Assembly (NCBI RefSeq): GCF_030625865.1
Contig: NZ_DAOUQB010000025.1
Span: forward strand, 1 to 48,062
Direction of reading: 5' to 3'
From: Anaerotignum sp.
GTDB lineage: Bacteria > Bacillota > Clostridia > Lachnospirales > Anaerotignaceae
Length of the DNA: 48,062 nt
Shown here: positions 4,699 through 8,036 of the stretch, piece after piece
How the letters are laid out: every line of letters starts with the position of its first letter
Numbering within the stretch: position 1 is the first letter of the stretch
Program-made: the position numbers and the translations under genes
Notes under the pieces: generated by a model
The model's database searches: none
What the model was told of the DNA's origin: nothing
The model's input: the letters and a program-made list of their open reading frames with translations, nothing else

Positions 4699-4842
4699 AA
4701 TATCCATTCTATTTAAATTGCAATTCATAATTACAATCCCCTTTCGTTTAATATTTTATCTTATAATTTTACCAAACAAAAAAGAAATAAGCAAATAAAG
4801 AACAAGATTTTTAGGGAGTTTTTCTTTGTTTATCATGCTCGT

Positions 4843-4870
4843 TCATATTTCAAAAGTTATGGCATATATT
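4843..4870 (+). promoter_or_regulatory. Sigma-E-like promoter of the spoIVF locus
   Basis: TCATATT (4843-4849) fits the sigma-E -35 consensus KMATATT. CATATATT (4863-4870) resembles its -10 CATACAMT, with a 13-bp spacer. It lies just upstream of AGGAGGG (4878-4884) and the ATG at 4892, giving a very short leader. This suits mother-cell expression of a SpoIVF operon. Confidence 0.5.
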
Positions 4871-4891: not shown

Positions 4892-5257
4892 ATGACGGAT
4901 AAAGAGCGAAAACGACGCAGAATGGAAATGGAAAAAAGAATGAGAGAAAGGCAGGGCGGACGACATACCACAGAAAGCTCTTCCGGTGGACTTCTAGTTT
5001 TTCGTACATATGTAACCGTTATTTTGGCGGGAGCTTTTATACTTGTTTCCGCATTTCATACAGATACATCAGAGGAAGTATGTCGTCGATTAAAAGAAAC
5101 CATTGCATATCAGATTCCCATGGAAGAGGTTGCAACGGCAAAAGACAAATTAATGGTATTTTGGAAAGACAAAAACATTTCCTTGCCTGCTTTTGAGGAA
5201 GAAGAATCTCAGAAAAAAGAAAAGGTTTATAAGCCCGATTTAGAGGAGTCGCCCTAG
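4892..5257 (+). CDS. SpoIVFA-like N-terminal membrane protein (split gene)
   Basis: This 121-residue protein starts with a strongly basic stretch (about residues 4-24), has one membrane segment near residues 36-55 (FRTYVTVILAGAFILVSAF) and then a charged tail. Together with the peptidase-like ORF that starts two bases after its stop, it has the size and order of SpoIVFA (basic N-terminus, single membrane pass, C-terminal LytM/M23 domain). In Bacillus, SpoIVFA anchors and inhibits SpoIVFB in the outer forespore membrane. Here the two halves are in different frames. AGGAGGG lies upstream of the ATG and the sigma-E-like promoter precedes it. Identification rests mainly on context, because the N-terminal part has no diagnostic motif. 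Confidence 0.6.
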   Translation: MTDKERKRRRMEMEKRMRERQGGRHTTESSSGGLLVFRTYVTVILAGAFILVSAFHTDTSEEVCRRLKETIAYQIPMEEVATAKDKLMVFWKDKNISLPAFEEEESQKKEKVYKPDLEESP

Positions 5258-5258
5258 T

Positions 5259-5735
5259 GTGTTGGCATGGTCTTTTCTCAATTGGGAAAAAAAACAAGAA
5301 GGTTGGATTAATCCTGCTGAAGGAACAATTACCTCTTCCTGTGGCATAAGGGAAAATCCTATTTTAAAAAAAACGGAGTTTCACAATGGCATAGATATTG
5401 GGGTTGTTACGGGTACTGGCGTTGCAGCGGTTCGCAGCGGTGTTGTTACCGAAATCCGCACGTCTCCAACTTTTGGAAAGGTTCTGGAGTTTGAAACGGA
5501 GGATGGGTATAAAATTATGTATGCCCATCTTTCGGAAATTTTAGTGAAAAAAGGCGATAAGATAAAGCAAGGGGATATTGTAGCAAAATCGGGAAACACA
5601 GGGTTATCCACTGGACCTCATTTGCATTACAGCCTTTGGAAGGACGGAAAACTCTTAGATCCAATGGGATATGTGGATCTGAAATATACGCAGGAAGTTG
5701 CTGCTGAATATGCTGCACGGGGGGATTCCATATGA
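5259..5735 (+). CDS. M23/LytM metallopeptidase-domain protein (SpoIVFA C-terminal half)
   Basis: This 158-residue ORF is a nearly pure M23 (LytM) domain. All metal and catalytic positions are visible: H42 and D46 (FHNGID), H90 (YAHL), and H121 and H123 (HLH). M23 enzymes cut peptidoglycan cross-bridges, and in SpoIVFA the domain is regulatory. The start is the GTG at 5259, immediately after the TAG of the preceding ORF, with GAGGAG about 10 bases upstream, so the pair looks translationally coupled. The upstream frame is closed by a stop at 5241-5243, so any fusion would need a frameshift between 5241 and 5257, where no homopolymer run exists. There is no signal peptide; unless frameshifting occurs the product would be a free soluble domain. 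It overlaps the next gene by four bases (ATGA). Confidence 0.75.
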   Translation: MLAWSFLNWEKKQEGWINPAEGTITSSCGIRENPILKKTEFHNGIDIGVVTGTGVAAVRSGVVTEIRTSPTFGKVLEFETEDGYKIMYAHLSEILVKKGDKIKQGDIVAKSGNTGLSTGPHLHYSLWKDGKLLDPMGYVDLKYTQEVAAEYAARGDSI

Positions 5736-6571
5736 TAAAGCAAATTAAAATTCATCCGTTATTTTTATTACTAGGGGTTGCCTTGTTTATTTTTGGGAAG
5801 GCAACTCTATTTTGGGACATGCTGTTTTGCTGGGCAGTTCAAGAAGGGGGATATGCTTTTTTTTGTATGCGCAAGGGATTAAATGTTCGGTGGTGGCTTT
5901 TCACCCCCTTGGGTATTCGGGTAGATTTTATGAACAAAATTCCTTCCTTTGAAGAAAAGATAATGTTGCATTTTATAGGTAGTGGCATTGGCATTTTACT
6001 TAGTATCATTTTGTTTGCATTGGAACAAAGAAGCTTTGCTCTGCTTTCCTTTTTATTGGCAGGCGTTCGTCTTTTTCCTGTTTTGCCTCTGGAGGGTGGA
6101 CGAGTTTGGCTTGAAATTTTGGGTAGATGGAAAGGGACACTGCGGGCGGCGGGGTGGCTCACAAAGGTGGGGAGTGGTGTTGGTTATGGAATATGTACTT
6201 TCGGAGTGATTTTTTCTATATTATTCCCTCATGCCTTTTTGTTTTTACCTATAGGGCTTTATATGATTTATGCCAACAAGCATGAGTTTTTACAGATTGC
6301 CAGAAATTTATATTTTTCTATGCTTGAGCGGGAAGAAAAGCCTTTACGAGAGGTGATTGTATCTGGAAACGAAACACCATTGGAATTGGCTTTATATTTG
6401 AATCCCTACGAAGATACTTTCTTTTTTCAAAAAAATGAAAACGGTGTCTCTCAGGAACGGGTTATGCTGGCTTTGTTTTGGGGGAAAGATAACCGTTGGG
6501 TATGGAAAGTAGCAAACAAAAAAGAATATCGTGCAAAAAACTATTGTTTCGGGTATGATGATATGGAATAG
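5732..6571 (+). CDS. SpoIVFB-like site-2 protease homologue with degenerate active site
   Basis: This 279-residue multi-pass membrane protein has the layout of SpoIVFB, the intramembrane zinc protease that processes pro-sigma-K. It follows the SpoIVFA-like ORFs with an ATGA overlap and GGGGGG as ribosome binding site. The signature positions are altered. Where SpoIVFB has HELGH, this protein has QEGGY (Q37-E38-G39-G40-Y41, within WAVQEGGYAFF). Where the third ligand Asp is expected (PLDGG), it has PLEGG (E121), and the preceding conserved Asn is also missing. Only the general-base Glu of HExxH is kept. Flanking matches (PLG near 59-61, LLAGVRLFPVLPLEGGRV) support the alignment. By family knowledge such a protein should not hold catalytic zinc normally, so it may be a pseudoprotease or use unusual ligands. 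Confidence 0.75.
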   Translation: MIKQIKIHPLFLLLGVALFIFGKATLFWDMLFCWAVQEGGYAFFCMRKGLNVRWWLFTPLGIRVDFMNKIPSFEEKIMLHFIGSGIGILLSIILFALEQRSFALLSFLLAGVRLFPVLPLEGGRVWLEILGRWKGTLRAAGWLTKVGSGVGYGICTFGVIFSILFPHAFLFLPIGLYMIYANKHEFLQIARNLYFSMLEREEKPLREVIVSGNETPLELALYLNPYEDTFFFQKNENGVSQERVMLALFWGKDNRWVWKVANKKEYRAKNYCFGYDDME

Positions 6572-6599: not shown

Positions 6600-8036
6600 A
6601 TGAAACGGGTTTTATTGGATATCGAAGAAGGAATTACTAGGGTTGCCTTGGTTGAAGATGGCAAGCTGGTTGAATTATATTATGAAACAAAGCGTGAGGA
6701 AAGTTTGGTTGGGAACGTCTATATTGGTCGGATTGACAATGTAATACCGAATTTACAGGCTTGCTTTGTAGAAATAGGCAGTGAGAAAAAAGGATACCTT
6801 TATTATGGCAATCGACGGGCTGTTTCTGACAAGGAGAAAAATCCCGCCAGACCAAAATCGGGGGATACTGTGATTGTGCAGGTGGAAAAGGATGCCGTTG
6901 GAACAAAGGGTGCAGTTTTAACCCCAAATATATCTTTTCCCGGTAAATTTCTTGTTTTGATAGAGGAGGATGGTGAAATTGGTATTTCTCGCAAGATAAC
7001 GGATAAGGAGGAGCGAGAACGAATTCGCCGAATGGCAGCGGGATTTTTACCCCAAGGATATGGGGCGGTGATTCGTACAAATGGCGAGGGGAAAACAGAG
7101 GCGGACTTCCAAAAAGAAATCGGTTTATTATTGGAAAAAGCGAAAATTGTAGCAAATGGTCAATTCAGAAAAGCACCCGCTTTGTTGCTTCGACAAAGCA
7201 TACCTGTGGAAAAGGCGGTTCGAGATTTTTATAGTGAGGATATAGATGAATTTGTTGTAAACAGTGAGGAAGCATATGAACATTTGCTGGGAACGGGAGA
7301 TTTTAATCGAGAAAATCAACCTATATTGCAATGGTATCAAGAGAAACTACCCATTTTTGAAGAGTTTTTTGTTGAAAGTCAAAGTCAAAAGGCTTTAGAT
7401 GAGAAGGTTTGGCTTAAAAATGGCGGATTTTTGGTGATACAGGAAACGGAAGCCTGCGTTGTCATTGATGTGAATTCAGGCAAGGCGGCAGGAAGGGGAG
7501 ATTTGGAAAAGGCAGTTTTAAAGACTAACTTGGAGGCGGCACAAGAGGTGGCCAAGCAATTGCGTCTTCGAAATCTTTCTGGAATTATTATTGTGGATTT
7601 TATTGATATGACAAGTGAAGAAAATCGAAATATTGTAACCAAAACGTTGGAAAAAGCTGTGGAAAAAGACCGTATTAAGACGGTTGTCGTTGGTATGACA
7701 GAGTTGGGATTAATGCAATTGACAAGAAAAAAAATACGTCCAAGCTTATCAAAACAAATGACTACGAAATGTCGCCAATGCCAGGGGAGTGGGCGAATGC
7801 CATCCATTGATTGGACGGTAACCCGGATGCGCCGGGAAGTGGAGAGTATTTTGGCAAATACGATTTATAATAAGGTTACAGTGCAGGCAGATGCTAGACT
7901 TTTGTCAGCTTTCCTCGGATATGATAATGTGTATTTAGATAAAATTTCTAGGGAATTTGGAGGAACTGTAATTTGTGAAAATAAGGATGCCATGGGGTTT
8001 TCCCAATTTCAAATCGTAAAAGAAAAATGCAAATAA
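6600..8036 (+). CDS. rng: Ribonuclease G/E family endoribonuclease
   Basis: About 478 residues. The N-terminal S1-like domain (RVLLDIEEGITRVALVEDG, then NVYIGRIDNVIPNLQACFVEIG) is typical of RNase E/G. The catalytic aspartates fit VVIDVNSGKAAG near residue 290 and IIVDFIDM near 333. The zinc-link motif CRQCQGSGR near 390 holds the tetramer interface. The enzyme cuts single-stranded AU-rich RNA in mRNA decay and rRNA or tRNA processing. The frame is open from an ATG at 6531, but the ATG at 6600 is preferred: it follows the spoIVFB stop, matches the family N-terminus (MKRVLLD) and has a weak GTAGGTG site. A strong terminator follows at 8049-8095. Confidence 0.92.
   Translation: MKRVLLDIEEGITRVALVEDGKLVELYYETKREESLVGNVYIGRIDNVIPNLQACFVEIGSEKKGYLYYGNRRAVSDKEKNPARPKSGDTVIVQVEKDAVGTKGAVLTPNISFPGKFLVLIEEDGEIGISRKITDKEERERIRRMAAGFLPQGYGAVIRTNGEGKTEADFQKEIGLLLEKAKIVANGQFRKAPALLLRQSIPVEKAVRDFYSEDIDEFVVNSEEAYEHLLGTGDFNRENQPILQWYQEKLPIFEEFFVESQSQKALDEKVWLKNGGFLVIQETEACVVIDVNSGKAAGRGDLEKAVLKTNLEAAQEVAKQLRLRNLSGIIIVDFIDMTSEENRNIVTKTLEKAVEKDRIKTVVVGMTELGLMQLTRKKIRPSLSKQMTTKCRQCQGSGRMPSIDWTVTRMRREVESILANTIYNKVTVQADARLLSAFLGYDNVYLDKISREFGGTVICENKDAMGFSQFQIVKEKCK

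Follow-up and report, generated by a model that had tools for sequence, protein, structure and literature searches.

SpoIVFB is a model site-2 protease, and its known job is to cut pro-σK. In the window (the whole stretch of DNA that was analyzed, 48,062 nucleotides of Anaerotignum sp.), the gene at the place of spoIVFB encodes a protein in which the ligand residues of the catalytic zinc are replaced, raising the question of whether such a protein is maintained, and as what. The original prediction was a pseudoprotease kept for another function, or a form of σK control that works differently here. The features concerned are the following.

4842–4870, + strand: σE-like promoter, TTCATATTT at 4842–4850 and CATATATT at 4863–4870, upstream of 4892
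4892–5257, + strand: first ORF (ORF1) of the LytM gene that occupies the spoIVFA position; by eye, its N-terminus is basic and it has a single hydrophobic stretch; it ends in Pro-stop
5243–5257, + strand: proposed +1 frameshift site, with GAGGAG at 5243–5248, three nucleotides, CCC at 5252–5254, and TAG at 5255–5257
5259–5735, + strand: ORF2, M23/LytM domain (Peptidase_M23, 7.1e-30), in the +1 frame relative to ORF1
5732–6571, + strand: pseudo-SpoIVFB gene, an intact ORF with an ATG start, 279 amino acids
5840–5854, + strand: QEGGY (residues 37–41) where HExxH is expected (letters checked, alignment)
6065–6079, + strand: VRLFP (residues 112–116) where FNxxP is expected, the Asn being lost (letters checked, alignment)
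6086–6100, + strand: PLEGG (residues 119–123) where PLDGG is expected (letters checked, alignment)
6332–6481, + strand: C-terminal region (residues 201–250) corresponding in position to the CBS domain of SpoIVFB, still conserved
6600–8036, + strand: RNase G/E gene 3′ of spoIVFB (Pfam RNase_E_G, 6.2e-91)

A check of the letters confirmed QEGGY at residues 37–41 and PLEGG at 119–123, both of which had been pointed out beforehand, and the reading frame is unbroken, as had also been claimed. Alignment with 12 relatives revealed that the Asn of the NxxP motif is missing as well, V112-R113 occupying its position. The whole 279-residue protein was scanned for HExxH and none was present, ruling out a true HExxH elsewhere in the sequence. 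The Pfam Peptidase_M50 model matched only residues 102–137, at 19.4 bits and below its 27.2 cut-off, and Pfam detected no CBS domain in residues 201–250. Homology spans the whole protein, with 31–33% identity in alignments to SpoIVFB from one neighboring genus (g12 below). A profile of dead and intact SpoIVFB together scored the proteins of the window's genus at 339–356 bits, these proteins being themselves rows of the profile. An AlphaFold2 model built from two sequences only reached a mean pLDDT of 52.4. With its ligand residues replaced, the predicted protein cannot be expected to perform a SpoIVFB-type cleavage of pro-σK.

The window's genus, represented by eight genomes, is called g1; other genera are labeled g2–g16, and single genomes G000 and so on. 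A search of 60 relatives with the pseudo-SpoIVFB gave matches in 20, including seven of the eight g1 genomes, and the six other g1 copies are 63–78% identical to that of the window. Both His residues, the Asp, and the NxxP Asn of the M50 signature are missing in all seven, and QE[GV]GY with P[LM]EGG is the form common to the lineage (7/7 g1 genomes with the gene). The 12 aligned SpoIVFB proteins of other genera all retain HExxH and (P/T)(L/M)DG(G/S). The survey was extended by family and order searches (58 genomes and, from a larger group, 295 genomes, 84 of the latter matching at 1e-20), and the motifs were read at 87 loci of 86 genomes. Outside g1 but within the same order, both motifs are intact in 78 of the 79 genomes read; the sole exception, G300, is a fragment that has HExxH. 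A partial second locus in G294 (L249) has an intact second motif. Since the order search scored at most eight candidates per genome with a profile holding both forms, a distant dead SpoIVFB could have escaped it. Within g1, the copy in G007 (L007) has a stop 14 codons early, behind which the remaining tail is still readable, and G006 has no SpoIVFB. No second spoIVFB was found in the genome, in which the other M50 matches are of the RseP type, with motifs intact, or YwhC-like. The weak family matches were read as well: G019 and the first match of G077 represent different M50 types, each with HExxH, and the match of G006 and the second matches of G005 and G077 are the YwhC-like gene.

The family search found no true SpoIVFB match in g7 (7 genomes), g8 (2), g11 (9), or G006. 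A SigK tree, which took in 38 of 40 rows, unites g1, g7, g8, and g11 in one clade (support 100/97), adjoined (86/80) by g2 and g12, which carry intact SpoIVFB. At 14 of 17 loci without spoIVFB, the RNase G gene lies directly 3′ of the LytM gene (the remaining three being two from g11 and one from g6), and no SpoIVFB remnant was found (best E 0.047). On sequence evidence, the gene of the window is a true spoIVFB, the active site of which is inferred to have been lost before the seven carrier species split. The tree placement and the absences, taken together, suggest that the protease became dispensable in the clade of g1, g7, g8, and g11, most lines having lost the gene and core g1 having kept a dead one; this is the reading of one gene tree, and loss followed by regain of spoIVFB by transfer is not excluded.

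The dead protein is under purifying selection. Its dN/dS ratios are 0.08–0.19 (Nei-Gojobori, 21 pairs), and it is therefore maintained without its catalytic residues. Synonymous sites are near saturation; the least saturated pair has a dN of 0.10 and a dS of 0.69 (ratio 0.14), and a pair of intact g12 genes gave 0.21. Mean identities in g1 resemble those among intact g12 SpoIVFB over residues 1–200 (0.71 vs. 0.70), residues 201–279 (0.73 in both), and residues 201–250 (0.77 in 21 g1 pairs vs. 0.74 in 10 g12 pairs). Residues 51–72 are less conserved in g1 (0.62) than in g12 (0.80), whereas residues 73–115 are more conserved (0.68 vs. 0.47). The two genera are possibly of unequal age, and this limits the comparison.

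The substrate of the lost activity retains a pro-like leader. All seven genomes with a dead SpoIVFB encode a SigK with 19 uncharged, hydrophobic residues before FPKPL, the best 10-residue hydrophobicity means being 2.50–2.87 (leaders could be scored in 32 of the 40 SigK rows; the pattern failed in 8). Loss of the SigK pro-sequence, the solution of Clostridioides difficile, is thereby ruled out as an explanation. Leaders of the same hydrophobic kind occur in g7, g8, and g11, which have no SpoIVFB. Leader type and SpoIVFB presence do not match strictly, because g5 and g13 also combine hydrophobic leaders with the absence of SpoIVFB and because G029, with an intact SpoIVFB, has a leader of only 1.36; leaders at or below 1.13 were found in g3, g4, g10, and g16, all without SpoIVFB. 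The hydrophobic leaders of g5, g7, g8, and g13 suggest that another protease may handle pro-σK in these genera.

The sigK gene itself is broken near its 3′ end in six of the eight g1 genomes, after GISRSY (GISRSY|VSRIEK). The missing 3′ part lies on the same strand at a distance of about 22 kb in G003, 36 kb in G005, 21 kb in G007, and 34 kb in G001; in G000 and G004 it is found on a different contig. Beside the 5′ part are six ORFs for large serine recombinases (three in G000 and one each in G003, G005, and G007), and all six were above the cut-offs for Pfam Recombinase and Resolvase. The ends of the element carry short matching inverted motifs (by eye). From this arrangement, sigK is judged to be interrupted by a skin-like element in these six genomes, and its excision in the mother cell is inferred. 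The element and the dead protease are not strictly linked, since sigK is split in its middle in G015, where SpoIVFB is intact, and unsplit in G002, which has the pseudoprotease; it is also unsplit in G006. Apart from an RseP-type protein, present with HExxH in 8/8 g1 genomes, no canonical site-2 protease was found in the genus. The proposal that σK is controlled differently here is supported by the split sigK (6/8) and by this restriction to RseP, and the accompanying question of whether SigK carries a pro-sequence is answered by the leader.

A SpoIVB-type protease (Peptidase_S55) is encoded in all eight g1 genomes, and BofA in 56 of 57 family genomes, a distribution too general for the presence of BofA to serve as a marker of SpoIVFB. 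One BofA position is more telling. To place it, we relied on what we take to be the Bacillus subtilis BofA sequence, and the alignment behind this column contains a gap, B. subtilis having four extra residues between N48 and N61. Among 23 BofA proteins, the Asn aligned with N48 is present in 7/7 from genomes with a dead SpoIVFB, 3/5 from genomes with an intact one, and 2/11 from genomes with none; for SpoIVFB-bearing versus SpoIVFB-lacking genomes (10/12 vs. 2/11), Fisher's exact test gave p = 0.003, uncorrected for descent. The intact g12 genomes are split (2/4). BofA residues N48, N61, and T64 are described as important for SpoIVFB inhibition in the portion of PMC9042235 available. The pattern fits a BofA that in g1 may still meet a SpoIVFB-shaped partner, for which there are no interaction data.

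Upstream of the dead gene, the σE-like promoter had been proposed before. It is assigned by what we assume to be the σE consensus, and it is kept in 7/7 genomes with the pseudo-SpoIVFB and not in G006, which lacks the gene. The claim that the gene sits in the right operon is true as gene order, the neighbor being the M23/LytM gene part at 5259–5735. Because PMC3533761 describes the LytM proteins that clostridia encode in place of SpoIVFA as no orthologues of the Bacillus protein, the claim goes no further than gene order; SpoIVFA has been called absent in clostridia (PMC3416734).

No Pfam family exceeded its cut-off in ORF1 of this LytM gene (4892–5257), and its M23 domain lies in another frame. 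Thirty LytM loci were read; one (L119, g6) is different, and 29 (L091–L118 and L120) are of the +1 type. The 31 genomes of the six genera g1, g2, g7, g8, g11, and g12 include two, G014 and G064, which gave only weak M23 matches and were left out of the count. At all 29 loci from these genera, ORF1 ends in CCC followed by a stop (TAG in 28, TGA in 1), with the LytM domain lying in the +1 frame beyond it. Elsewhere in the same genes, each of 27 invariant columns of residues with four- or six-fold degenerate codons uses at least three codons, and three invariant Pro columns have CCC in only 10, 4, and 4 of the 29. GAGGA[AG] stands six bases before the ORF1 stop in seven of eight g1 genomes; among the 21 loci from the other genera, many have only a weaker form of this Shine-Dalgarno (SD)-like part or none. 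Translation of the gene appears to involve a programmed +1 frameshift at CCC-TAG, and a fused product is inferred. Such a product makes sense, since without the hydrophobic segment of ORF1 the M23 hydrolase encoded by ORF2 would be left in the cytoplasm. Re-initiation at the GTG at 5259 is an alternative route to ORF2, but would leave the fixed CCC codon unexplained. The arrangement resembles the +1 frameshift of prfB, as far as the accessible part of PMC12421855 describes it, in its slippery pyrimidine codon ahead of a stop, its inferred +1-frame product, and, in 7/8 g1 genomes, the SD-like purines six bases ahead of the stop. It differs in having CCC-TAG instead of CTT-TGA, in occurring in a sporulation gene, and in an SD-like part that is clear in 7/8 g1 genomes and weaker elsewhere.

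Ten further loci from other genera comprised three with a single fused frame, six with the upstream ORF in the −1 frame, and one without LytM. A LytM part in the −1 frame was seen at L082, L083, L085, L164–L166, L168–L170, L191, and L197, for which either −1 frameshifting or re-initiation could be considered.

Several explanations of the dead SpoIVFB have to be weighed. The draft assembly that contains the window has 84 contigs, and the lost motifs could in theory be a sequencing or assembly error; seven different genomes, of which two are single-contig assemblies, show the same residues, and an error is for practical purposes ruled out, as is chance. It is very improbable that the protein retains protease activity through altered metal ligands such as Glu38, Glu121, and others. 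Glu38 is invariant across all 19 aligned rows (7 from g1 and 12 others) and Glu121 could in principle bind metal, but Gln37, Tyr41, and Arg113 stand for His, His, and Asn in 7/7 g1 proteins, Glu having likewise replaced Asp in 7/7, and we know of no M50 enzyme that works with such replaced ligands. A decaying relic, headed for loss as in the sister genera, would agree with the absence of the gene from g7, g8, g11, and G006 of the same genus and with the early stop in G007. The low dN/dS ratios at near-saturated synonymous sites, the replaced motif common to 7/7 copies, the promoter kept in 7/7, and overall identities similar to those among the intact g12 proteins all make decay improbable. What had been suspected, a pseudoprotease kept for another function, is supported by the dead motif in 7/7 g1 copies and purifying selection, against intact motifs in 78 of 79 genomes elsewhere. 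Loss of the zinc-binding residues combined with preservation of the rest therefore makes the protein probably a binding partner instead of an enzyme; no interaction, location, or phenotype data bear on this.

As to what is bound, the explanation we lean towards on balance, without regarding it as secured, is that the pseudoprotease acts without catalysis as a partner of BofA and the LytM protein and that σK timing depends mainly on DNA rearrangement; the function of the protein is inferred throughout. The dead SpoIVFB, BofA, and the LytM protein would still occur together in the outer forespore membrane, where the first would stabilize or place the other two and perhaps also dock the SigK leader. 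Release of σK would have moved, in most species, to excision of the sigK element, and the leader, if cut at all, would be cut by another protease such as RseP. Against a partner of this kind, BofA (56/57) and the LytM gene persist without spoIVFB, and therefore neither needs SpoIVFB as such. The main rival, which we regard as a possible but doubtful reading, makes the dead protein a receptor or decoy for pro-σK that keeps the hydrophobic leader membrane-bound until SigK is released by another protease. The strongly hydrophobic, uncharged 19-residue leader in 7/7 genomes speaks for it, as do the region where a CBS domain would be expected, one of the better conserved parts of the protein, and the inactive B. 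subtilis SpoIVFB E44Q, which still complexes pro-σK (PMC9042235, available part). However, leaders of this kind persist in g7, g8, and g11 in the absence of any SpoIVFB, and no other cutter of the leader is known. A broader version, which remains speculative, is that of a rebuilt σK checkpoint in which excision replaces intramembrane proteolysis and the dead protease serves as a receptor or assembly factor for BofA, SigK, and the frameshift-made LytM protein; the SigK leader would then be uncut or otherwise cut, and the LytM hydrolase would be made only by the +1 frameshift. If true, this would illustrate in detail how an enzyme can turn into a structural regulator within the sporulation pathway.

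Returning to the BofA/LytM partner that we favor, its setting is like that of B. subtilis SpoIVFB in that an M50 homologue adjoins a LytM gene behind a σE-like promoter and in that the g1 genome also encodes BofA, a SpoIVB-type protease, and a SigK with a hydrophobic leader; the difference lies in the replaced ligand residues of HELGH, NxxP, and LDGG. C. difficile, in the parts of PMC5025042 and PMC3533761 that were accessible, likewise has sigK split by skin with a large serine recombinase and has no working SpoIVFB. There, according to the same partial sources, SigK lacks a pro-sequence and spoIVFB and bofA are missing, whereas g1 keeps the leader, bofA, and a dead spoIVFB, and its split lies near the sigK 3′ end with several recombinase genes. 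The published precedent for a dead site-2 protease is Arabidopsis EGY3, which the available text of PMC10978774 presents as a retained homologue without HExxH that stabilizes other proteins. EGY3 is a plant chloroplast protein, whereas the g1 protein belongs to a sporulation pathway and stands at the place of that pathway's enzyme. Neither a dead SpoIVFB nor a CCC frameshift in a LytM gene was found among the literature matches listed, which covered open-access papers only and are weak evidence of absence. A naturally selected dead SpoIVFB points to a further role that needs no catalysis; knocking out the active enzyme cannot distinguish such a role from cleavage. The family shows intact, dead, and deleted spoIVFB side by side, with sigK split or whole, and a shift of σK timing from proteolysis to DNA rearrangement is therefore testable by comparison.

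Other observations concern the sigK element and the remaining M50 proteins. The element (L151–L158; G000, G003, G005, G007) carries apparent metabolic cargo, including acyl-CoA dehydrogenase-like and dihydropyrimidinase-like genes, and in G005 apparent pilus-like genes as well (all by eye). The YwhC-like M50 protein of g1 (L002, G000:C81:30940-31209; L269–L275; L090) has HE[FY]TR in 8/8 genomes; its second motif is PMDC in six of the seven picked up and PMDG in G006. The YwhC-like protein of G077, from another genus, has HEFVR and PMDC, and the non-canonical form therefore extends beyond g1.
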